DNA of 64,000 nucleotides from Actinomycetaceae bacterium zg-1166 (GTDB lineage: Bacteria > Actinomycetota > Actinomycetes > Actinomycetales > Actinomycetaceae). This document shows, piece after piece, positions 3,514 to 39,266 of this stretch. The notes under the pieces were generated by a model. That model was given only the letters and a program-made list of their open reading frames with translations. It did no database searches and had not been told where the DNA came from. The number at the start of each line of letters is the position of its first letter. Within the stretch, counting starts at the first letter, position 1. The position numbers and the translations under genes were made by a program. The stretch is taken from contig CP064953.1 in the NCBI GenBank assembly GCA_015679245.1, positions 744,001 through 808,000 of the forward strand. Reading direction: 5' to 3'.

Positions 3514-3620
3514 TCGTAGCGTAAAGCTGCACGTCATATATCAACTGTGCAGAGGATCCATGTGCGAGCCTGGCCTCCTGCTCACCCTACCGTTGTAAAT
3601 CAGTACCAGGAAGGAACAGC

Positions 3621-4982
3621 ATGTCAACGGCGACACTTCTGTTAATTGGCGCAGGCTCGATAGCCTTGCTCCTCTTTTTCATTATTTATTTCAAGATGAA
3701 CGCCACCGTAGCGCTCATCCTTATCTCGGGTCTTACTGCAGTTGTTGCAGGAATCCCAATTACTGATCTCGCTAATCTTCTCATCGGATCATTCTCCAGT
3801 ACGGTTGGCAAACTCGCACTCATCATCGGATTTGGTGCTGTATTTGGGAGAATACTCGAACAATCTGGCGGCGCAGAAGTACTTGCCAACACGATGCTCA
3901 AAACATTCGGAGAAAAGCGCGCGCCACTTGCACTCTCAGTAGCATCCCTTCTCTTTGGCTTCCCCATCTTCTTCGACGCAGGCCTCGTCGTCATGTTCCC
4001 CATCATCTTCACGATTGCACGCCGCCTCAACGGGCCAGTGCTGCTCTACGCTCTTCCAGCTGCGGGAGCATTCCAGGTGATGCACGGCCTCATGCCTCCT
4101 CATCCTGGCCCCGTGGCAGCCGCACAGCTAGCCGGAGTGAACCTCGGCATGGTTCTCATTATGGGTATGCTCGTTTCGATTCCCACATGGTACCTCGCAG
4201 GCTATCGCTTCACTCTTTTCTGGTCGAAAAAGTTCAACGTCAAAATCCCGACGATTCTAGGAACAACCGATCAAGAACGTGAATTGCCGGGCAAACTCCC
4301 CAGTTTCAGCACAGTTCTCGCACTCCTTCTTCTTCCAATTGCCCTCATTGCAGGCAACACAATCTCGACAACACTTCAGACGAACGGCACGATTGCCAAG
4401 ACGAACGCGATCGCCAACCTCCTCCAATTCCTCGGAGATACCGCTGTAGCACTCTTCATCACAACCTTCGTTGCCCTCCTCGTGCTCGGATACTTCCGCA
4501 AGGTTGATTGGGCAAAAGCCAACTCCATTATCGATAACGGATTCAAACCGGTTGTCGCAATCATCATGGTTGCAGGTGTTGGTGGTATGTTCGGTGGAGT
4601 TCTCCGCGAAACAGGAATCGGCACTGCGCTCGCAGACTCTCTCGAACACTTAGGAATGCCGCTCATTGTCTCCGCCTACATCCTCTCGCTCGCTCTGCGC
4701 GTTGCTCAGGGATCGGCAACAGTTGCTATCACAACTACAGCAGGTCTCCTCGGTTCTGCGGTTGCCTCAGCCGATATCAGTGCCATGCAGGCTGCATTAA
4801 TCGTCGTTGCAATGGGTGCGGGATCCTTCTTCGCTTCCCATGTCAACGACTCAGGATTCTGGCTCGTCGGCGGATTCCTCCAAGTAGATACGGCAACAAA
4901 CCTCAAACTCTGGACTGTTGTTTCGTCGGTTATCTCGGTTGTTTCATTCGCGTTCTGTTGCCTCTTCTACGTTCTCGTATAA
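3621..4982 (+). CDS. GntP family gluconate/organic acid:H+ symporter
   Basis: A 453-residue, very hydrophobic protein with about 12-14 membrane segments. It shows GntP family signatures: the segment FFDAGLVVMFPIIF, the LMPPHPGPVAAA loop near residue 158, and FFASHVNDSGFWL near the C-terminus. GntP permeases carry gluconate, keto-gluconates, glycerate and similar hydroxy acids with protons. An AAGGAAC site precedes ATG 3621. Its position between the aldolase and the dehydrogenase suggests that the operon imports a sugar acid rather than myo-inositol, which normally enters through IolT/MFS or ABC carriers. The substrate is unknown. Confidence 0.88.
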   Translation: MSTATLLLIGAGSIALLLFFIIYFKMNATVALILISGLTAVVAGIPITDLANLLIGSFSSTVGKLALIIGFGAVFGRILEQSGGAEVLANTMLKTFGEKRAPLALSVASLLFGFPIFFDAGLVVMFPIIFTIARRLNGPVLLYALPAAGAFQVMHGLMPPHPGPVAAAQLAGVNLGMVLIMGMLVSIPTWYLAGYRFTLFWSKKFNVKIPTILGTTDQERELPGKLPSFSTVLALLLLPIALIAGNTISTTLQTNGTIAKTNAIANLLQFLGDTAVALFITTFVALLVLGYFRKVDWAKANSIIDNGFKPVVAIIMVAGVGGMFGGVLRETGIGTALADSLEHLGMPLIVSAYILSLALRVAQGSATVAITTTAGLLGSAVASADISAMQAALIVVAMGAGSFFASHVNDSGFWLVGGFLQVDTATNLKLWTVVSSVISVVSFAFCCLFYVLV

Positions 4983-5027
4983 GTGGTACGAGCTCACTCA
5001 CTCAAAATTCACCGCAGAGGAGAAAAC

Positions 5028-6524
5028 ATGTCGGTAGTTCATCAGTGGATCGATGGGGCACCCTATGAAGGCACGCCCTTGCGGATCGTTCCGATTGAGA
5101 ATCCCGCAACGGGCAAAAATATCGGAGAGGTAGCTCTCGCTTCCAAGGAGGATCTCGATCACGCAGTCGAGGTTGCCCGCACGGCACAAAAGGCGTGGGC
5201 GCATACCTCACTCGCCAAACGTGTAGCCGTAATGTACAAAATGCGTGAACTTGTGCTGGCTCACCAGGACGATATCGCGAAAGCCATCGTCGCCGAACAC
5301 GGTAAGGATTACTCTGACGCAGTTGGAGAGATCCAGCGTGGGCGGGAAACCCTCGATTTTGCCTGCGGTATTAACGCAGCGATCAAGGGAGAATACTCCT
5401 TCGATGTATCCAGTGGTGTTGACATCCATACGATCAAGCAGCCAGTGGGTGTTGTTGCAGGAATTTGCCCCTTCAACTTCCCTGTGATGGTTCCGATGTG
5501 GATGCATCCGATTGCTCTTGCCTCAGGTAATGCTTTCATCCTCAAACCAGCCACACCTACGCCCACAGCATCCTTCCTTATCGCCGAGCTATATAAGGAA
5601 GCTGGCCTTCCTGATGGCCTGTTTAACATCGTGTGCGGAGGACGTGAAATGGTGACAGACATCCTGGAGCATCCAGGTATTGACGCCATTTCCTTTGTGG
5701 GTTCAACACCAGTTGCGCGCATCGTCCAGGAAAAGGGATGCGCGGCAGGCAAGCGGGTTCAAGCGCTCGGTGGAGCGAATAATCACGCCATCGTCATGCC
5801 CGATGCGGATATCGAATTTGCGGCAAAGCACATCAGCGCAGCTGCTTTTGGTGCTGCAGGAGAGCGCTGCATGGCGCTCCCGATCGTTGTCTCGGTCGGC
5901 GGAATCGGTACGAAGCTCGCCGAGAAGGTTGCTGAGCACGCCAAGACTATCAAGGTTGGCTACGGCATTGATGAAGGCGTCCAGATGGGGCCGGTTATTT
6001 CAGCGAAGGCTAAGGAACGCATTATCGGGATGATTGATCGGGCAGAAGATGCTGGGGCAACGGTTATTCTCGATGGCCGCCGCTTTGTCGTTCCCGGATA
6101 CGAAGGAGGGCACTTCCTTTCTCCGACGATTGTGACCAATGTTCCGCGGGACTGCGATCTGTACACCGACGAAGTATTTGGCCCCGTACTTGCCATTGTT
6201 GAAGCGGAGGATTACGAGGAGGCAATCTCAATCGTCAATGCTCAGCCTTTCGGTAACGGCTCGGCCATCTTCACAAACGACGGTGGTGTCGCTCGTCGTT
6301 TTCAGATGGAGGTCGAAGCAGGAATGGTGGGCGTGAATGTGCCGATCCCTACCCCTGTGGCCTACTATTCCTTCGGCGGGTGGAAGGATTCCTTGCTCGG
6401 TGATCTGCATATTCACGGCCCGGAAGGTCTGAAGTTCTACACTCGAACCAAGGCCATCACCGAGCGTTGGCCAAGCGAATCTGGAACCTACGAGGCCACA
6501 ATGTCCTTCCAGCGTGAGGAGTAA
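5028..6524 (+). CDS. mmsA: CoA-acylating (methyl)malonate-semialdehyde dehydrogenase
   Basis: A 498-residue ALDH-superfamily enzyme of the MmsA/IolA type, which oxidises malonate or methylmalonate semialdehyde to acetyl- or propionyl-CoA with NAD and release of CO2. The nucleophile is Cys281 in AAGERCMALPI, the NAD-fold segment is GICPFNFPVMVPMWM, and the C-terminal FGGWKDSLLGDLHIHGPEG is typical of the family. ATG 5028 is chosen because AGAGGAGAAAAC stands just before it; the frame extends upstream to 4983 without a ribosome site. It is the last gene of the kinase-aldolase-permease operon and uses the semialdehyde that the aldolase would release. Confidence 0.9.
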   Translation: MSVVHQWIDGAPYEGTPLRIVPIENPATGKNIGEVALASKEDLDHAVEVARTAQKAWAHTSLAKRVAVMYKMRELVLAHQDDIAKAIVAEHGKDYSDAVGEIQRGRETLDFACGINAAIKGEYSFDVSSGVDIHTIKQPVGVVAGICPFNFPVMVPMWMHPIALASGNAFILKPATPTPTASFLIAELYKEAGLPDGLFNIVCGGREMVTDILEHPGIDAISFVGSTPVARIVQEKGCAAGKRVQALGGANNHAIVMPDADIEFAAKHISAAAFGAAGERCMALPIVVSVGGIGTKLAEKVAEHAKTIKVGYGIDEGVQMGPVISAKAKERIIGMIDRAEDAGATVILDGRRFVVPGYEGGHFLSPTIVTNVPRDCDLYTDEVFGPVLAIVEAEDYEEAISIVNAQPFGNGSAIFTNDGGVARRFQMEVEAGMVGVNVPIPTPVAYYSFGGWKDSLLGDLHIHGPEGLKFYTRTKAITERWPSESGTYEATMSFQREE

Positions 6525-6546
6525 TAGTTCCATTCCAGACTTGTAC

Positions 6547-6587
6547 GTTGTGTGGGGGCGAAAGATAATCTTTCGCCCCCACACAAC
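6547..6587 (+). terminator. Strong hairpin closing the kinase-to-dehydrogenase operon
   Basis: A perfect 19-bp inverted repeat (arms 6547-6565 and 6569-6587) with a 3-nt loop starts 23 bp after the dehydrogenase stop. There is no T tract after it, as is common for terminators in this phylum, so it acts as a terminator or as a 3' end stabiliser. Confidence 0.7.
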
Positions 6588-6844
6588 TGTGACGTGTGAA
6601 GCATTGTGTTCAACAAGTCTGCCGGTCGCATTGACCTGCCTCACTAGCGTGGCGCATGAAGAAGCATGAGAGGTCAGGTAGTGGGGAGCTTCGTCGTGAA
6701 AGCGGCATAGCTTCCTTTTGTCTCGCTCACCTGTGACGATTCCATACTGCCCTACGAAACGTCTGTGATACTGTCGTGCCGCAGAGTGTACAAAGTTCTA
6801 GAATCGTTCCTTGGATGTCTTCTTACACCGACGAAAGGACACCA

Positions 6845-8236
6845 ATGGCGCTCACCAGTCCGAGTTATACCGTCACAATGCGTGTCCAAGTGGCGACGAA
6901 TCCGCGTGCAACACAACACCTTGTCGAGGCCGTGGTCGATGCGGGTGCCCTCGTCACTGGTATCGATATGGTGGAGTCCTTTGAGGACTACCTCATCATC
7001 GAAGTTACCTGTGATTGCGTGAACTCGGCACACGTGCGTGAGGTTCAAGATCAAATCGAGATGCTGCATCGCAACAAAGTTCTTGAGATTTCCGACGCAA
7101 CTCTTGAAGCACACGAGGGTGGGAAAATCTCGGTGGGATTGAAGAATCCACTGCGCACACGCCAGGATCTCGCCCGCGTGTACACTCCCGGTGTGGCTCG
7201 TGTGTGCAAGAAGATTTCCCGTGACTCTAACTTTGCCAAGCAATACACGATCAAGAAAAATACGGTGGCTGTGGTTACCGATGGAACCGCTGTGCTTGGC
7301 CTGGGTGATATCGGCCCAGAAGCTGCCCTGCCGGTGATGGAAGGCAAAGCAGCCCTCTTCAAGCGCTTCGGTGATGTAGATGCGTGGCCTGTCTGCCTTG
7401 ATACGAAAGACACGGAAGAGATCATCTCCATCGTGAAGGCAATCGCTCCGGTTTATGGTGGGATTAATCTCGAAGATATTTCTGCCCCGCGCTGTTTCGA
7501 AATTGAGGAACGTCTGCGTGAAGAACTCGATATCCCAGTTTTCCATGACGATCAGCACGGCACGGCAATCGTCGTCCTTGCGGCTCTTATCAATGCGCTC
7601 AAGATCGTGGGGAAGAGCATTGAGGACGTGCGTATCGTCGTTTCGGGCGTGGGAGCAGCAGGCTCGGCCATTATCCGCCTCCTTATGCTTCACGGAGCGA
7701 AGGATGTGATCGGGTGTGGGCGCAGTGGAGCTTTAGGTCCCTTCCGCGAAGAAGCCAACCCACACCGTAATTGGCTCGCACAGCACACGAATCCGCGAGG
7801 TATTGAAGGTAGCCTCACCGATGCACTCTGTGACGCGGACGTGTTCATCGGTGTGTCGTCTGGAAATATTCTCACTGGTGAAGATATCGCGACGATGGCA
7901 GATAAAGCGATTGTCTTTGCTCTGGCAAATCCCACTCCGGAGGTGGATCCCAGTGCGGCTGCGCGTTCAGCGGCGATTGTTGCGACCGGACGTTCCGACT
8001 TCCCCAATCAGATCAACAACGTCCTCGTGTTCCCTGGACTTTTCCGCGGAATGCTCGATGCCGGAGTTTCGCGTATCGACGACGAAATGCTGCGTATCGC
8101 TGCTGTTGCTATCGCGGAGGTGGTTTCCGACGAACAGCGCAATTCCAACTACATCATTCCCGGCGTGTTTGATGATCGTGTTGCTGGAGCTGTCTCCAAA
8201 GCTGTAGTGCGCTATTTTGTGCGCGAGGAGGAATAA
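6845..8236 (+). CDS. NAD(P)-dependent malic enzyme with N-terminal ACT-like domain
   Basis: A 463-residue protein with an ACT-like regulatory region at about residues 5-75, followed by the malic enzyme core. It catalyses oxidative decarboxylation of malate to pyruvate and makes NAD(P)H. The core shows [35 protein letters not shown], the metal and substrate segment DDQHGTAI, and the nucleotide-binding [12 protein letters not shown] 6845 follows AAAGGACACC; the open frame begins 23 codons earlier without such a site. It stands alone between two terminator hairpins. The ACT domain suggests control by an amino acid or similar small molecule. Confidence 0.9.
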
Positions 8237-8247
8237 CTAAATAGCTG

Positions 8248-8288
8248 GTAGTGGGTCGGTGGGGGCTCACCGACCCACTACTGTTTTT
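8248..8288 (+). terminator. Rho-independent terminator after malic enzyme
   Basis: Perfect 14-bp arms (8248-8261 and 8268-8281) with a 6-nt loop are followed by TGTTTTT. It lies 12 bp after the malic enzyme stop and separates that gene from the convergent opcA. Confidence 0.9.
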
Positions 8289-8325
8289 GGCGCTATGCCC
8301 TGCTTTCTTTGCTCTCTAGCACAAC

Positions 8326-9282
8326 TCACTGAGAGCGGTGAAACTCCTGAATGTCGAGTAGTTCAAGGCCGTGCAGGAGTACGTCCTCATACGCAGTATC
8401 AGCTGTAGATTCGCGTAGCTCCTCAATGAGCATTGTCTCTAAAGAGCGCATGGGAAGATGCACCTGCTGGGTTTTTCGGCCTGGACGTATCATCTCCCCG
8501 TAGTCTGAGCCGAGGGGGCGATCAAGGATGATGTCACCGCCCTCGCGCGTGAGTACCACTGTAGTGACGGCTTCTCCGCGATTTTCCTCTACCCATGAGG
8601 GAACTTCGAGCCTTCGGCCCAACCATGCGGCAAGAAGATAGGTAGAAGGATGGGTGAGGCTGCCACGTACGAGTGCTGAGGTGATCTCAGTGCACGGCGT
8701 TTCGTCGAGCATCGCTGCCACGTGATTGCGCCAGAGCGTGATTCCGGCCCAGCCGAGATCTGTATCGCCAGGAGTGTAGCCCTCGCGCAGGCGTGCGAGA
8801 GCAGCAGGAACATCCTCGCACTGCTGGCTTGTGGTAATACGACGGGTGGACATAGCTCCCACCTCGGTGGTTGAAGCCGGGGAAGGTGCATCTTGAATCC
8901 ACCATGTCACTATTGGCGTATCGGGGAGGAGGAGTGGACTGACGAGAGTTTCGATATTCGAGGCGGCACCGCCATGTGCGCGCAGAATAACGATTTCGGA
9001 AAGTCCAGCCTCTGGGCCTACTCGAATCTCGGCATCGAGCGAAGCCTTAGTATCGCTCTCAGTTTCCTCTCTTTCGTCAGCCATGACGAGTACGACACGA
9101 AGAGGATGGGCACGTGAAGCTCCAGCCGCAGCCTGGATACCATCACGCACGCCTGCTTCGTCACTAGCGATGACAAGGAGAGTGAGGACACGCCCCAAAG
9201 CTACCGATCCCGTGGTAGTGCGCAGCTGATCGAGGCGGATGCCGACGGCAGCTGACGAAGTTTTATTCATGTGGACGATCAC
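8326..9282 (-). CDS. opcA: Glucose-6-phosphate dehydrogenase assembly protein OpcA
   Basis: A 318-residue OpcA homologue. OpcA is a non-catalytic partner needed for G6PDH activity or assembly in cyanobacteria and actinobacteria. Family marks are PIVTWWIQDAP in the middle and LRVVLVMADE near the N-terminus. GTG at 9282 has GAGGAG six bases before it; the next in-frame ATG is four codons later. It follows zwf on the minus strand after a 143-bp gap that carries two copies of an ACAGGTGAAAGGG-like word. The usual neighbour pgl (6-phosphogluconolactonase) does not follow; the next gene is the convergent malic enzyme. Confidence 0.9.
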   Translation of the reverse strand: MIVHMNKTSSAAVGIRLDQLRTTTGSVALGRVLTLLVIASDEAGVRDGIQAAAGASRAHPLRVVLVMADEREETESDTKASLDAEIRVGPEAGLSEIVILRAHGGAASNIETLVSPLLLPDTPIVTWWIQDAPSPASTTEVGAMSTRRITTSQQCEDVPAALARLREGYTPGDTDLGWAGITLWRNHVAAMLDETPCTEITSALVRGSLTHPSTYLLAAWLGRRLEVPSWVEENRGEAVTTVVLTREGGDIILDRPLGSDYGEMIRPGRKTQQVHLPMRSLETMLIEELRESTADTAYEDVLLHGLELLDIQEFHRSQ

Positions 9283-9425
9283 AAGAACTCCTCACGGTGA
9301 AACAAATTAGAAAAGGCAAGTGTAGGGCGGGTAGATAGGGCATACGGACAGGTGAAAGGGTTGTATGGCATGGATACAGGTGAAAGGGTCGCATGAGCGG
9401 GTGGAATGGTGCAGATAATCCCGAT

Positions 9426-10937
9426 TTAGGGGCGTCTCCAGGTTCGACCATCGCGCGCAAGCATCTCGTCGGCGGCCTGGGGTCCCCATGTTCCGGGGGC
9501 ATAAGTGGCGAGAGTTTCTGGGGAGGATTCCCAGGCTGCTTCAGCTTTGTCGAGGATATTCCAGGAAAGCTCAATTTCACGGGCTTGTGGGAAGAGAGGT
9601 GGCTCACCCAAGAGAACATCGAGGATGAGGCGTTCGTAAGCCTCAGGAGAATATTCGGTGAAGGCGTGACCGTAGGAGAAATCCATCGTCGTATCGCGCA
9701 GGTTCATCACTGCTCCTGGAACCTTCGAACCGAAGGTAAAAGTCATTCCCTCGTTCGGCTGAACGTGGATGACGAGAGTGTTGTGTCCCAAACCGTCTGT
9801 AGAGCTAAAGGGAAGGAACGGCGGATATTTGAAGACGATCGCAATTTCGGAAACACGGCGGCCAAGGCGCTTGCCAGCACGCAAGTAGAAAGGGACTCCA
9901 GACCAACGTCGAGTCTCAATCCCCAGGCGCAGAGCCGCGTAGGTATCGGTAGTGGAGGAAGCGGGAATTCCCTCTTCTTCTCGGTAAGCTCTCACCCACT
10001 GCCCACCTTGCCACCCTGATTCATATTGGGCGCGCACAGCCGATTCACTCACAGATCCAAAGAAGTGCGTGGCTTCCAGCACTTTCTCTTTTTCGATTCG
10101 CAGGGCTTCGGCGGAGAAAGAGGTGGGTTCTTCCATTGCTGTGAGCGCGAGGAGCTGGAGGAGATGGTTTTGAATGATGTCACGAGCAGCACCAATGCCA
10201 TCGTAGTATCCAGCGCGCGAACCAATCCCGATATCCTCCGCCATTGTGATCTGTACATGATCGACATGGTTCGAGTTCCACACTGGCTCAAAGAGTTCGT
10301 TGGCAAAGCGCAACGCAAGGAGATTTTGCACTGTCTCCTTACCTAAGTAGTGGTCGATACGAAAGACGGCACTCGGGTCAAAAACGCTCGTGACAACTTC
10401 GTCGAGCTTCTTGGCGCTGGCCGCATCCGAGCCGAAAGGTTTCTCGATAACGACGCGCCGCCAGGAATGATCTCCACCGTTGTGTAACCCGGCGCGCCCA
10501 AGACCGCCGAGCACAGTGGGGAAGAGTTCGGGTGGAATCGCGAGGTAGAAGGCAAAGTTTCCGGAGGTTCCGCGAGTCTCATCGAGTTCAGCAAGTGTGG
10601 AGCGAAGATCCTCATATGTGCAATCCTCAGTGTATTGACCAGCCACGATCCTCAGCCCCGACATGAGTTGAGAGAGAGTCGTCTCGTTGACCTCGGACTT
10701 TGCACCCTCACGGATAGCTTCTTCGATGACCTCGGGTAGGTCTGGACGAGGCTGACGTGCCACACCGACGATAGAGAAGGAAGGTGGCAAAAGGCCTCGG
10801 TGTGCCAAATCGTAAAGAGCGGGAAGAATCTTGCGTTTGGAGAGGTCACCTGTAATTCCGAAGAGTACGACCCCGCAGGGAGCCGCAATGCGCTGGAGCC
10901 GCGAATCGGGTATAGCACGCAGAAGATTCGTAACCAT
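9426..10937 (-). CDS. zwf: Glucose-6-phosphate 1-dehydrogenase
   Basis: A 503-residue Zwf that oxidises glucose-6-phosphate to 6-phosphogluconolactone, the entry step of the oxidative pentose phosphate pathway. The N-terminal LFGITGDLSKRKILPALYDL is the NADP-binding fold. RIDHYLGKE is the substrate-binding signature with the catalytic aspartate-histidine pair, and PFYLRAGKRL lies near the end. ATG 10937 follows a weak purine-rich site. It lies between tkt and opcA in the same direction. In many actinobacteria tal sits just before zwf, but here it is absent and a 323-bp non-coding gap separates zwf from tkt. Confidence 0.96.
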   Translation of the reverse strand: MVTNLLRAIPDSRLQRIAAPCGVVLFGITGDLSKRKILPALYDLAHRGLLPPSFSIVGVARQPRPDLPEVIEEAIREGAKSEVNETTLSQLMSGLRIVAGQYTEDCTYEDLRSTLAELDETRGTSGNFAFYLAIPPELFPTVLGGLGRAGLHNGGDHSWRRVVIEKPFGSDAASAKKLDEVVTSVFDPSAVFRIDHYLGKETVQNLLALRFANELFEPVWNSNHVDHVQITMAEDIGIGSRAGYYDGIGAARDIIQNHLLQLLALTAMEEPTSFSAEALRIEKEKVLEATHFFGSVSESAVRAQYESGWQGGQWVRAYREEEGIPASSTTDTYAALRLGIETRRWSGVPFYLRAGKRLGRRVSEIAIVFKYPPFLPFSSTDGLGHNTLVIHVQPNEGMTFTFGSKVPGAVMNLRDTTMDFSYGHAFTEYSPEAYERLILDVLLGEPPLFPQAREIELSWNILDKAEAAWESSPETLATYAPGTWGPQAADEMLARDGRTWRRP

Positions 10938-34204: not shown

Positions 34205-34536
34205 GTGGGTGTGCGCTGTTGGGTGAGTAGGTGTGTGCCGTTAGACGAGTGGGTGTGTGCCGCTGAAACAATGAAACCGCTGATTGCGCACAGAGATTAG
34301 GCCACATAGGGATAGGCCACAGGGAAAGCCTGCCCTGAGAGCAGAACAGACAGAAAATGAGCGAGGCAGAAAACCCCGGTAGTTCAGTAGCTCGCCCTTG
34401 GAGAGGGAACGAATATTCATACGAGTGAACTGTTTACGCCTGCGCATCTTCTCGGAATCTCAACCTGTACGGAGTCTTTACCCTGAGGCAGCGTAAGGTG
34501 GATGTAATACCGTGCACTCGCGAGCAAAGGAGCATC
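34203..34536. repeat. Three tandem 22-bp units at the glnE stop, then a non-coding gap
   Basis: Units of the form GAGTGGGTGTGTGCCGTTAGAC stand head to tail at 34203-34224, 34225-34246 and 34247-34268, beginning inside the glnE stop codon. The rest up to 34536 has no supported gene and contains the leader of the phosphatase gene. Confidence 0.8.
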
Positions 34537-35184
34537 ATGCGCATCCACCTCATTCGACACGGCGAGACTGTGAATAACCTGGCGCACGCCATTGATACGG
34601 GTTACCCAGGTGCACATCTCAGCGACTTGGGGCGTGCGCAGGCGGCGAGTCTCGTCGATCGTCTTGCGGGGGAGAACTTCGATGCACTGTATGTTTCGTG
34701 TCTGCGCCGCACACATGAAACTGCTATGCCGTTGGTTGCAGCCACTGGTCTTACTCCGATTCCACGTCATGGTCTACGTGAAATTCAGGCCGGGAGCTGG
34801 GAGATGAAGACGAGCGAGGAAGATTTTGAGGGTTACTTTTCCACCCTCGTGCGGTGGATCCGTGGGGATGTACATTTGCGTCAAGGTGGGGGAACCAGTG
34901 GGCAGGAAGTGCTTGAGCGCTACGATGCCGTGATAAGTGAAATTGAGGAGAGTGGCGCTGAGAATGTAGCTGTGATTTCTCATGGTGCTGTAATCGGTTT
35001 CTGGACTGCTGTGCGTGCGGCGGGTGTGTACGAAACGTCGGTACTGGATAATCACTTGCAGAATACGGGAGTGTGCGTGATCGAAGGGTCACTGTGTAAA
35101 GGGTATCGGGCTGTGTCTTGGATGGGGAAGAAGATAGGTGAGGTATTTGGTAAACCTGACGCTTCCCCTCAGGCGACGCACTAA
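34537..35184 (+). CDS. Histidine phosphatase (phosphoglycerate mutase-like)
   Basis: A 215-residue protein of the histidine phosphatase superfamily. The N-terminal LIRHGETVNN carries the phospho-accepting histidine and arginine, and the second catalytic histidine is in VAVISHGAVIGFW. The segment ALYVSCLRRTHETA supplies the second conserved arginine. The length suits CobC/GpmB-like phosphatases; the substrate is unknown. ATG 34537 follows AAAGGAGCATC; the frame extends 13 codons upstream without a site. It is convergent with the ABC cassette. Confidence 0.85.
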   Translation: MRIHLIRHGETVNNLAHAIDTGYPGAHLSDLGRAQAASLVDRLAGENFDALYVSCLRRTHETAMPLVAATGLTPIPRHGLREIQAGSWEMKTSEEDFEGYFSTLVRWIRGDVHLRQGGGTSGQEVLERYDAVISEIEESGAENVAVISHGAVIGFWTAVRAAGVYETSVLDNHLQNTGVCVIEGSLCKGYRAVSWMGKKIGEVFGKPDASPQATH

Positions 35185-35243
35185 CTCGTGAGCCAATAGC
35201 GAATAGTTATATATCTTTTGCCTGGGGAAAGGTGTGGCGTCGG

Positions 35244-35855
35244 CTATAGCTGAGCCTCATGCTGTCGAGAAAAGGGGAGTGCACTGTGTTCGTATGAAAA
35301 GAATCGAGAGAGAGCCAGTGTCAGAAGGAGAAGTACAAGAACTACTATGCGCAGGTGTGGTGAGGAGCCAGGAAGAGTGAGTGCCCACGACTTAGCGCTA
35401 CCATAGCCGTCGGTTCCCAGAAGCCACACAATAATGGCAATGCAGAAAGGTGGCAGCCAAGACAAGGTAGGAAAGATATTGAGAAAGAGTGCGGTGAGAA
35501 GTGTGTAGAAAGCAAAAGTGTAGCTCACATCGAGGAATGAGGGACTCCCACAGGAGGCTACGCTGCAACAAGCGAGGCTGCAGAGAGAAGAGAAGAGCAG
35601 ATCCTCAACGAAGTGCCGAAAGGCGTAGGGATCGTAGCTTCTTGGGGTGACGTGCCGTCGCGAATGAATAATGATGAGTGGAAGAGAAACGAAACTGAGG
35701 AGGAGCGGCCAAAGGCGGCTGTATGCTCCCAAACGGCCAGGTACAGGATGGAGGTCGCTAGGGAGTAGTGCGATGCAGAGGCCAAGCAGGAGAAGAAATG
35801 CGGCAGATAGTGTATATCCCCTCATTCGCCACAGGCTTAGAACGTGGGAGTGCAT
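35244..35855 (-). CDS. Integral membrane protein of the secreted-protein/ABC cassette
   Basis: A 203-residue protein with five to six predicted membrane helices. Three short loops contain clustered cysteine and serine (CSLACCSVASCGS). No family was recognised. ATG 35855 is chosen because it overlaps the upstream permease end (stop at 35837) by 19 bp; the frame itself extends to 35945. The position and overlap suggest a further subunit of the same ABC complex or an immunity-type membrane protein. It ends the cassette. Confidence 0.65.
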   Translation of the reverse strand: MHSHVLSLWRMRGYTLSAAFLLLLGLCIALLPSDLHPVPGRLGAYSRLWPLLLSFVSLPLIIIHSRRHVTPRSYDPYAFRHFVEDLLFSSLCSLACCSVASCGSPSFLDVSYTFAFYTLLTALFLNIFPTLSWLPPFCIAIIVWLLGTDGYGSAKSWALTLPGSSPHLRIVVLVLLLLTLALSRFFSYEHSALPFSRQHEAQL

Positions 35856-37018
35856 GATCTGAGTGCCTCGTAGGACTGTTGTATGAGAGTGCGGCTCTGG
35901 TCTGTTTCTGATTCGAGAAGAGCCTGGGGAACTGAATCTCTCCACTCATCTTTGACAGAACGATTTCCAGTTGCGTAGATAAGTATTGTAAATTCTCTAT
36001 CCAACATAGTCGTATCACAGTTGGGAGATGGATACATGTCGATAACTGTTTGGTTCAAGAGTTCAGGATTCTTCACAGCGAGCCACACATCCAGATAAAG
36101 GGTATTCTCATCAAATCTTCCTTTTTTCTGTGTAAATGTGTGTGGCGTAGGTAGTGAAGCAGTATCAAAAACTTTAAGTGTGGCTTCATAGTTATCCATT
36201 ATCGTGGAAAGCATTTTACGATAACCAAGACCAACACAATATGTTCGGTGTGATGGAGATGTCTGGCAGTAGAGATCTTCAGCAATATAGATTGAATTTC
36301 GGAGTGAAATTCGTGAGCTTGCACATACAAGTGTACATATGAGTAAGAGTAAAATTAGACGCCACCGAGGTTGTGTTGATCCATCGAACCATACTGCAAG
36401 GGTTATGCAACTAATGAAAATAATCTCTTGAAGGAAATAGTAGGAAAGGTGGGGTGCTAATCCAACAAGTGATGATGTCGCTCCTCCTGTATTTACGAGG
36501 ATTGAAAGATCGCTATTGTAAAGATATGTAGTGAGGAAGAAGATTGAGAAACCGACAACCGGCGCTATCCAATAGTGCGTATAAGTTTGTCCTAGAAGAA
36601 ATCCAATAAGCGTATTGAGATAAATAAAAGTGAGTGTAGATATTGGTGGAAGTACGAGTCGGAGATCTGGAATGCCGGGCATCGAAGTTATTAACGTGAT
36701 GAGGAGAACTGCTATAAGGCCAAGAATCCAGATAGCCATAATGGGAAAGAATAGTGTGAAGCTCTCTTGAAGAGCAGCAGTGTATCGACGTTGACGAAGA
36801 ATAAAGATGTGAGGCGATTTGCGGCGGAAATTCACAGCCCATCCGCAAGAAATGGCTGCAGCTATTGGGCCAATAATGACATTGGAGAAACAATATACTT
36901 CAATAGTAGCGGCCCATTCATAGCGCCAGAAAAAGGAGCGCAGTGTGATGTGTGGGACGAGTAAGACTGCCGTTGCAAGTACTCCTATAAGCCACGGGCG
37001 CGCCCAGAGAGCCTTCAT
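35837..37018 (-). CDS. ABC-type permease with large extracytoplasmic C-terminal domain
   Basis: A 393-residue membrane protein with about seven helices in residues 1-250, then a 140-residue polar C-terminal domain after the last helix (LILLLLICTLVCASS). The polar part has four spaced cysteines (YCQTSPSHRTYC, SPNCDTT and SCTPTF) and is probably outside the cell. It overlaps the ATPase gene by 4 bp, which marks it as the partner permease, although it does not look like FtsX, ABC-2 or bacteriocin-type DUF1430 permeases. It resembles no family I can name. The gene is visibly AT-richer than the flanking genes, a sign of transfer. Confidence 0.7.
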   Translation of the reverse strand: MKALWARPWLIGVLATAVLLVPHITLRSFFWRYEWAATIEVYCFSNVIIGPIAAAISCGWAVNFRRKSPHIFILRQRRYTAALQESFTLFFPIMAIWILGLIAVLLITLITSMPGIPDLRLVLPPISTLTFIYLNTLIGFLLGQTYTHYWIAPVVGFSIFFLTTYLYNSDLSILVNTGGATSSLVGLAPHLSYYFLQEIIFISCITLAVWFDGSTQPRWRLILLLLICTLVCASSRISLRNSIYIAEDLYCQTSPSHRTYCVGLGYRKMLSTIMDNYEATLKVFDTASLPTPHTFTQKKGRFDENTLYLDVWLAVKNPELLNQTVIDMYPSPNCDTTMLDREFTILIYATGNRSVKDEWRDSVPQALLESETDQSRTLIQQSYEALRSCTPTF

Positions 37019-37728
37019 GAGAGGTGTCCTTCTATAAGTGAGCGACGAAGCTCGTCGAGTGAGGGTTTCTCATTATCGGCGTAGGAGCGTTGTGTAGCAT
37101 TTCCCTCATGTAGAAGTATGAGGTTCTCAGCAAGCTGCGAAGCCTGGTCAAGGGAGTGTGTAGAAAGAATAACTATGCGGTTCCTTGAGATACGTGTAAG
37201 TGTTTCATTGAGGTGCTCTTGTTGGAGAGGGTCGAGGCCTGAAGCGGGTTCATCGAGAATAATGAGCTGAGGGTTGTGGACAATTGCTTGTGCGATAAAT
37301 ACTCGTCGTTGTGTTCCTCCTGAAAGCTGTGTGAGCTTTGTGTCAAGGTGAGTAGTAGTAAAAGTAAGTTCAGTAGCTTTATTTATATTCGACTTCCATG
37401 TGGCACGTGGTACTCGTTGGAGCCAGAGTTGGTACTCAAGGCACTCTTGCACACGGAAGTTTCCAGGGAAACTCGGAAACTGCGGTAAATAGCCTATGTG
37501 GCTTCGGATGAGCGACAGATTATTCGCAGAGTATAACGTTTCGTTAAGATATATATTGCCGCTCTGTAGTGGGAAAAGTGTAGCAATGAGGGAAAGCAGC
37601 GTACTTTTCCCGGCGCCATTCTCGCCTAGAACAACAGAAATACCGTCTCTGAAGGAGAGATTGAGGCTATGAAGAATCTCAAAATCTCCGTAGCTGTGCG
37701 AGAGGCCGATAATATTGAGTTTATTCAC
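37015..37728 (-). CDS. ABC transporter ATP-binding protein
   Basis: A 237-residue ATPase with Walker A GENGAGKST (residues 35-43), Q-loop near GYLPQFPSFPG, signature LSGGTQRRV and Walker B LIILDEPASGLD, and a switch histidine in STHSL. This is the CcmA/bacitracin-exporter style of subunit. It overlaps the permease gene by 4 bp and lies 28 bp after the small secreted-protein gene. It powers export, or removal from the membrane, of a substrate, likely that secreted protein or a product it protects against. The direction is inferred from the absence of a binding protein. Confidence 0.9.
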   Translation of the reverse strand: MNKLNIIGLSHSYGDFEILHSLNLSFRDGISVVLGENGAGKSTLLSLIATLFPLQSGNIYLNETLYSANNLSLIRSHIGYLPQFPSFPGNFRVQECLEYQLWLQRVPRATWKSNINKATELTFTTTHLDTKLTQLSGGTQRRVFIAQAIVHNPQLIILDEPASGLDPLQQEHLNETLTRISRNRIVILSTHSLDQASQLAENLILLHEGNATQRSYADNEKPSLDELRRSLIEGHLS

Positions 37729-37755
37729 CGCAACCTCACTCCTTATGAACCAAAT

Positions 37756-38214
37756 TTAATAGTCAATGGTGAGAAGGGCAGGCTCTGTGCATGAATCTGG
37801 AACTGGCCATCCCATCTGCGCACATCCTGCCATTTCTCCTCGCATCTTTGTGTGATTCCATGGCATCGTGCGTCGTAGAATTTTACGTATTGTGGTGTTT
37901 TCTACTTCAGGTGTGGAAAGTATGCCTTGATGAACCCAATCTGTTTTTCCATCTACCTTCTGTCCATATGAAAAGAAAGAAGTGTATCCATACACGGAGT
38001 TTTTGTCATATGAACGGTCTGTCACGGTCATGAGAGAATGTGCTGTTCCAGCCTCATTCGTAAAGTTTCCTCGGGCCTCAACTCGAACTATCCCGCGATA
38101 TGTGGATGTTCGTGGCCCCCATGACTGAGCGAAACTTGGAGCTGTAAGGCACGAGATAAGGATGAGGAATGCGAGGATTCCAGGCTGTAGTCGCTTTTGT
38201 GGGTAGGTGTTCAT
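37756..38214 (-). CDS. Small secreted protein of the ABC cassette, bacteriocin-like
   Basis: A 152-residue precursor with a signal peptide (positive KR at 7-8, hydrophobic core 12-25, cleavage probably after Ala29 in SFA/QSWGP). The mature part of about 123 residues begins QSWGPRTSTYRG, has many aromatic and beta-prone stretches, and ends with two cysteines in the segment from GCAQMGWPVPDSC to LLTIDY that can form one disulfide. The layout recalls lactococcin 972-type systems (a secreted product followed by a membrane protein and an ATPase), but the sequence is not that family. The start is ATG 38214 with AAGGGGGTC before it. No function is proven; a bacteriocin or surface-interacting protein is a guess. 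Confidence 0.75.
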   Translation of the reverse strand: MNTYPQKRLQPGILAFLILISCLTAPSFAQSWGPRTSTYRGIVRVEARGNFTNEAGTAHSLMTVTDRSYDKNSVYGYTSFFSYGQKVDGKTDWVHQGILSTPEVENTTIRKILRRTMPWNHTKMRGEMAGCAQMGWPVPDSCTEPALLTIDY

Positions 38215-38237
38215 GATGACCCCCTTGTGGTTCTCAT
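38211..38237 (-). CDS. Eight-codon leader frame overlapping the secreted-protein start
   Basis: ATG 38237 with its own AAGGAGG site encodes MRTTRGSS and stops with TGA at 38213-38211, overlapping the ATG of the secreted-protein gene (ATGA). Its ribosome site and start (ACAAGGAGGTCATCATGA) are nearly a copy of those of the main gene (ACAAGGGGGTCATCATGA), 23 bp away. It may be a leader frame for coupled translation, or only the result of a local duplication. Confidence 0.4.
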   Translation of the reverse strand: MRTTRGSS

Positions 38238-38252
38238 GATGACCTCCTTGTG

Positions 38253-38296
38253 CGAGACGAGACTTACTTCACACCGAGACGAGACTTACTTCACAC
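38253..38296 (-). repeat. Perfect tandem 22-bp repeat upstream of the secreted-protein gene
   Basis: CGAGACGAGACTTACTTCACAC occurs twice without a gap at 38253-38274 and 38275-38296. It lies 40-80 bp before the start of the secreted-protein gene, where a regulator could bind twice. Confidence 0.75.
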
Positions 38297-38414
38297 TCAA
38301 AGTATAGGGTGCCTTCCTACCGCATGTCGTGAGTTTTGAGAAGCAGCTCCTCGATTTGCTGTTCGTTTGCTTGTTCATTCTGCGCAGGGGCGCCAACATG
38401 CCTAAGATAGAGGG

Positions 38415-39266
38415 GTGGCAGATCAAGAGGCACTTCTTCCAGGATTCGACAGCGCAGACTTCCCCATGCCGGCACCCTTAGATTCCCACGGGCCGGCACG
38501 TATTATCGCGATGTCTAACCAGAAGGGTGGCGTGGGGAAAACGACGACGACAATCAACCTCGCCGCAGCTCTTGCCGGGTATGGTCGGCGCGTGCTTATC
38601 GTCGATTTCGATCCACAAGCTGCTGCAAGTGCGGGGCTTGGCGTCAATTCGCGTGCCATGGAACGCACAATCTACAACGAACTCATCGCCGCGAAACCAG
38701 ACATACGCTCCATTATCGTGCCTACCGCTGTGGAAGGGCTCGATGTCGTACCGGCGAATATCGATCTTTCTGCCGCAGAAATCGTGCTGATTAACGAGGT
38801 CGCCCGTGAGCAAGCCCTCTCTCGCGTGCTGCGTCCTGTACTCGACGAGTACGACCTCATCATCGTCGATTGCCAGCCTTCCCTCGGTCTACTCACTGTC
38901 AATGCCCTCACTGCCGCGCACGGCGTCATCATCCCTCTTGAAGCCGAATACTTCGCCATGCGTGGCGTCGCACTTCTTACCGAGCAAATAGCGCGTATTC
39001 AGGATCGCCTCAATCCACGCCTCACCCTGGATGGCGTTCTTCTCACAATGATCGACCTACGCACGCTTCATTCACGTGAGGTTATGGCATCGGTGAAGGA
39101 AGGGTTCGCAGAGAAGGTGTATCAGACCTACATCTCTCGTACTGTCAAGTTCCCTGACGCAACGATTGCCGCCCAACCGATCACGAGTTACGCCCCGAAC
39201 CATCCGGGTGCTGTGGCTTATCGCCAACTTGCTCGCGAAGTTATCGCTAGAGGCCAGTGCGCCTGA
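38415..39266 (+). CDS. parA: ParA/Soj-type chromosome partitioning ATPase
   Basis: A 283-residue deviant Walker ATPase with QKGGVGKTTTTINLA as Walker A, IVDFDPQ, and LIIVDCQPSLGLLTVNAL as Walker B. The start is GTG 38415 with GATAGAGG before it; other GTG or ATG codons in the first 25 residues are possible. It heads the plus-strand block parA-scpA-scpB-rluB-tyrA/cmk-der. In this position, next to scpA rather than parB, the actinobacterial protein is a second ParA family member and is thought to help chromosome segregation together with SMC-ScpAB. The partner ParB is not in the window. Confidence 0.92.
   Translation: MADQEALLPGFDSADFPMPAPLDSHGPARIIAMSNQKGGVGKTTTTINLAAALAGYGRRVLIVDFDPQAAASAGLGVNSRAMERTIYNELIAAKPDIRSIIVPTAVEGLDVVPANIDLSAAEIVLINEVAREQALSRVLRPVLDEYDLIIVDCQPSLGLLTVNALTAAHGVIIPLEAEYFAMRGVALLTEQIARIQDRLNPRLTLDGVLLTMIDLRTLHSREVMASVKEGFAEKVYQTYISRTVKFPDATIAAQPITSYAPNHPGAVAYRQLAREVIARGQCA

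Follow-up and report, generated by a model that had tools for sequence, protein, structure and literature searches.

Our analysis revealed a four-gene cassette in which a small Sec-secreted protein, here called SEC, is followed by a three-part ABC transporter. This cassette recurs across actinobacteria and is apparently undescribed. We estimate the probability at about 50% that it encodes an exported antibacterial (bacteriocin-like) protein together with LanFEG-like ABC self-protection, with SEC as the presumed active agent and the transporter as the presumed source of immunity. The cassette was found in the window, that is, the whole stretch of 64,000 nucleotides analysed from a host genome of 1.92 Mb in a single contig, and all four of its genes lie on the minus strand inside 35244-38214. 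The first-pass annotation had proposed it as a candidate for an undescribed system, and this still holds, as SEC matched no known family and the cassette is found again in other actinobacteria.

SEC (152 aa; 37756-38214) is followed after 27 nt by the ABC ATPase (237 aa, with a GTG start; 37015-37728), which matches PF00005 with E = 1.5e-27. The ATPase gene overlaps by 4 nt that of the ABC permease (393 aa; 35837-37018), which has an external C-terminal domain. The permease gene in turn overlaps by 19 nt that of the second membrane subunit, TM2 (203 aa counted from the ATG, with six predicted transmembrane (TM) segments and no Pfam match; 35244-35855). These coordinates confirm the order described earlier, namely an ABC ATPase, a permease with an external C-terminal domain and a second membrane protein on the strand of the secreted protein, overlapping or nearly so. 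The neighbours of the cassette are glnE, a histidine phosphatase and parA/scpA/scpB. Since parA begins at 38415, on the opposite strand, the cassette does sit just before it, as had been stated.

Upstream of SEC, tandem duplications of 22 and 23 nt lie back to back at 38206-38296. The 23-nt repeat (38206-38251, minus strand) is imperfect and copies the ribosome-binding site and start of SEC; it makes an eight-codon leader ORF, MRTTRGSS, with its ATG at 38237 and with a TGA that overlaps the ATG of SEC (ATGA). The 22-nt repeat (38253-38296, minus strand) is perfect, with two copies immediately upstream of the operon, and might be a regulatory site. A promoter and terminator scan found nothing above shuffled sequences.

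SEC is predicted to be soluble. It has no lipobox, and its signal peptide, of approximately residues 1-29, has an AxA-type cleavage site. The mature protein carries the motif CAQMGWPVPDSC (Cys131 and Cys142) and a C-terminal Tyr, which bears out the earlier description of a secreted protein with two C-terminal cysteines. In the aligned homologues, the invariant positions include Trp32, a Gly/Asn/Val core and the C-terminal Tyr. The motif C-x-Q-x-G-x-PV-x-D-x-CS is common to all SEC proteins except that of G201, which has no cysteines; in the window copy, Thr replaces the last Ser. Neither SEC nor the tested homologues matched any Pfam or NCBIfam family, and PF09683 gave no match at E≤1 for SEC and ten aligned homologues. 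A comparison with the PDB by sequence returned antibody chance matches only. The AF2 model of SEC, predicted like the other structures from alignments only three deep, is all-beta and of moderate confidence (mean pLDDT 68.3). Its Foldseek search yielded generic beta-sandwiches and no solved structure at E≤0.001, so the model does not indicate an antibacterial fold. The first-pass annotation had staked its case on SEC lying outside known families, and no match to one was found.

Among 213 genomes of the host family, Actinomycetaceae, nine had homologues of SEC (family A), the window genome counted; so did 2 of 394 other genomes of the class sample and 1 of 247 Streptomyces genomes, and none was found among the other 245 genomes of the phylum sample. 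Two Streptomyces plasmids also carried them. None came up in phage records or in viral contigs. SEC, ATPase and permease were arranged in one order and on one strand at ten loci (the window, A. naeslundii, A. bowdenii, G009, G195, G270, G252, NZ_CP085174, NZ_CP070262 and G201), and nine of the ten also had TM2, which was not detected at the G201 locus. These ten loci are distributed over two bacterial families of one class and the two Streptomyces plasmids, A. naeslundii and A. bowdenii being Actinomycetaceae like the host. The available G252 sequence has the signal-peptide start of SEC out of frame, and this copy may therefore be broken. The arrangement is beyond chance: some ten other genomes or plasmids share the gene order, their proteins being 20-45% identical. 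The distance matrices of SEC and permease correlate (Mantel r = 0.76, p = 0.0001; r = 0.70 without G201), which indicates that the two travel together. Both tests proposed in the first-pass annotation, a search for known families and a search of the SEC neighbourhood in other genomes, came out in favour of an unannotated, recurrent secreted-protein/ABC cassette that is like lactococcin 972 yet distinct from it: SEC adjoins a homologous ABC set elsewhere.

The three transporter genes, hereafter the triad, represent a broad actinomycete transporter family. The best NCBIfam scores of the ATPase were to PQQ/GldA/DrrA-type exporters, all under the cut-off. For the permease and TM2, Pfam and NCBIfam gave nothing usable except DUF7224. 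Seven TM segments were predicted in the permease when counted across homologues, and this odd number places its C-terminus (about 150 residues) outside the cell. The external domain (residues ~240-393) contains Cys 251, 261, 334 and 389; across 11 aligned permeases three of these never vary, and the fourth departs only in G252, where the alignment is shifted. In the window permease itself Pfam DUF7224 (PF23866) was not detected at the curated cut-off; close homologues scored 14-22 bits against a cut-off of 27, and weak matches were seen in 7 of the 11 permeases. However, window-type permeases aligned with Streptomyces DUF7224 permeases over their full length (hhalign 99.7%, E = 1e-26, 382 columns), and profile comparison thus assigns the window permease to this uncharacterised family. 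DUF7224 was present in 22 of 297 class genomes, mostly in ATPase-permease-TM2 triads like that of the window, and no mention of it was found in the literature searched. In the permease tree, SEC-A loci fell mainly into one group with moderate support (87/88) and the window permease stood beside that of G092 (100/99); the deep order is unsure because of long branches. At L106 (G155; 4659-10422), two DUF7224-type ATPase-permease sets stand in tandem.

Lactococcin 972 (Lcn972) and LanFEG are the nearest working analogues of the cassette, which failed every sequence test for belonging to either one. Lcn972 loci consist of a secreted protein and ABC immunity genes (PMC4055356; PMC11796350), and lactococcin 972 and streptococcin B, like SEC, are small Sec-exported proteins whose genes stand before ABC genes with a presumed role in immunity. 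However, hhalign of SEC with the lactococcin 972 family (PF09683) gave a probability of 2.6%. Actinobacterial Lcn972 loci have one permease of ~690 aa and then an FtsE-like ATPase, whereas the window has an ATPase, a 393-aa permease and a 203-aa TM2, and its permease showed no homology to the ~690-aa ones. The window ATPase scored 107.9 bits on TIGR03608 (Lcn972 type), with a cut-off of 254.85. Membership in the lactococcin 972 group was therefore rejected, as neither PF09683, nor a single permease of ~650-700 aa, nor a TIGR03608 ATPase was found; the earlier view that the arrangement recalls lactococcin 972 with different protein families agrees with the failed sequence tests for SEC, permease and ATPase. 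Another actinobacterium (L116 of G311; 5576-8551) has a 692-aa permease preceded by two lactococcin 972-type genes in tandem, each encoding two cysteines.

LanFEG is built from a single ATPase and two subunits of six TM segments each (PMC5786555). In LanFEG transporters such as NisFEG, which stand beside a secreted antimicrobial, the two ~6-TM subunits differ, and the cassette matches this subunit plan; its permease differs in having seven TM segments, one extra, and the external Cys-rich domain. The window ATPase was also below TIGR03740 (LanFEG; 101.2 bits against 309.75), and the cluster context of LanFEG was missing, with no lantibiotic precursor or modification genes adjoining the cassette. 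BceAB has a single permease of ~10 TM segments, whose external domain is placed between TM7 and TM8; the cassette has instead a 7-TM permease with its external domain at the C-terminus, and a second membrane subunit.

The GC content of the cassette is 46.4% and that of its flanks 54.8%. The first-pass annotation was right that the cassette is AT-richer than its neighbours, but its suggestion that this reflects transfer did not hold. Thirteen of 14 homologous cassettes are AT-richer than their own flanks, by 3-12 points; AT-richness therefore belongs to the cassette as such and was rejected as evidence of recent transfer. Moreover, an orthologous triad in G092, of the same genus, sits near the same glnE-phosphatase pair. 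The cassette can move, since it is carried on plasmids. In three congeners (L126-L128), parA follows xerD and the glnE-phosphatase pair is elsewhere; in the window genome parA follows the cassette, with a rearrangement breakpoint between cassette and parA (34498-38415).

Other triads adjoin small signal-peptide proteins with 2-4 cysteines, which fall, by sequence, into two or more families not related to SEC: family B (ESRRWWDNND...C...) and family C (CYxxW..., three members, one of them possibly frameshifted). With a crude signal-peptide filter, which has false positives, 21 of 35 triads had a secreted-type ORF upstream, where 0.23 would be expected in a stretch of equal length; some of the 35 loci had been picked through SEC. 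Homology between SEC-A and SEC-B was rejected; their alignment is limited to the signal peptide and adjoining half (86%), and the two are therefore treated as unrelated. Used as a query, family B matched in 41 of 224 Streptomyces genomes (18%). Among family-B loci inspected in 40 genomes, the full triad was adjacent in 38, the ATPase only in one, and none of it in one. All five family-B plasmid loci inspected had the order secreted protein, ATPase, permease and TM2, and in named plasmid records every cassette part except the ATPase is labelled hypothetical. Family-B loci show two gene orders, and at some of them two to four secreted genes surround one triad. One triad, at L173 (Streptomyces G654; 3618-8677), has four secreted genes of family B around it, in tandem and divergent arrangement. 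It may be, at somewhat below even odds, that at least three sequence-unrelated families of Sec-exported, disulfide-bonded beta-proteins each have a partner in a DUF7224-type ABC transporter of three parts, which recognises them by its external domain. They would then form a widespread, undescribed modular antibacterial and self-protection system of actinomycetes, in about a fifth of Streptomyces species and on linear plasmids.

Triads without SEC stay intact under purifying selection, and SEC without a triad is rarer. G043 has the triad at the same site as A. naeslundii and lacks SEC except for its last codons; SEC is likewise lost in G040, which shares its site with G009. Both triads are intact and full length with dN/dS of 0.12-0.30; since these values are pairwise, some of the constraint may be older than the loss of SEC. 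G092 has its orthologous triad (permease 41% identical) without SEC, and G069 has a truncated SEC and then an intact triad. Conversely, an intact SEC stands beside a decayed triad (ATPase and TM2 remnants) in G051, and Streptomyces G784 (L110; 5999-6460) has a family-A SEC without an adjacent triad. In A. israelii the entire cassette has decayed. The triad-only loci resemble pneumococcal scb loci with BC-only (immunity-only) alleles, where 27.5% of strains keep scbBC only (PMC11796350).

This asymmetry bears on an unlikely alternative, that SEC is an extracellular transporter subunit, like NosD with NosFY, which caps or gates an ABC-2-type exporter of another substrate (lipid, polysaccharide or protein). 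The tight adjacency and co-divergence of SEC and triad would fit such a partner, but several lineages keep an intact triad without SEC, one keeps SEC without the triad, and unrelated secreted proteins occupy the same slot. The permease model weakly matched NosY and ABCG in Foldseek, but not significantly (E≥0.29), and since this model is poor (pLDDT 50.7) the matches were not counted as evidence. It is improbable, too, that the cassette encodes resistance to the bacteriocins of others and not a bacteriocin of its own, with SEC sequestering the foreign antimicrobial in the way of the LanI lipoprotein and the triad pumping it out. LanI with LanFEG is a known pairing (PMC5786555) and the distribution is patchy and partly plasmid-borne; however, SEC, soluble by prediction and without a lipobox, would diffuse away, and no antimicrobial biosynthesis genes were recognised adjoining the window cassette. 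SEC might instead serve the cell's own physiology, as a surface protein or a signal outside the cell that the transporter exports or recycles. This would suit a small exported protein and the multiple copies of family B in Streptomyces, but is very improbable given the patchiness within genera (SEC-A in 9 of 213 family genomes, family B in 18% of Streptomyces) and the repeated loss and decay.

For an antibacterial protein with self-protection, the course of events would be as follows. SEC is made and, as its signal peptide shows, exported by Sec. Outside, its two conserved cysteines would form a disulfide and SEC, a predicted beta-sandwich, would bind a surface target. Actinobacteria in the neighbourhood are probably what it acts on, with the membrane or a cell-wall precursor as a possible site. 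The producer's permease may recognise SEC through its external Cys-rich domain, and the LanFEG-like ATPase-permease-TM2 complex would then remove it from membrane or target. The triad is the durable half, in that secreted proteins are lost, duplicated or swapped for unrelated ones and the transporter stays. The persistence of SEC beside the decayed triad of G051 and without an adjacent one in G784 weakens the reading of a strictly self-lethal toxin. Mean identity was higher for SEC (38%) than for the permease (25%), unlike in many arms-race toxins, which counts against the antibacterial reading.

The pairing of secreted protein and transporter is strict, at 38 of 40 loci, and would remain a testable puzzle without an antibacterial role. 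If the antibacterial reading is right, many sequenced Streptomyces and Actinomyces would harbour a protein antimicrobial that has escaped annotation and comes with its own protection transporter, DUF7224 would gain a role, and the cassettes would offer small, directly testable proteins and selectable immunity genes.
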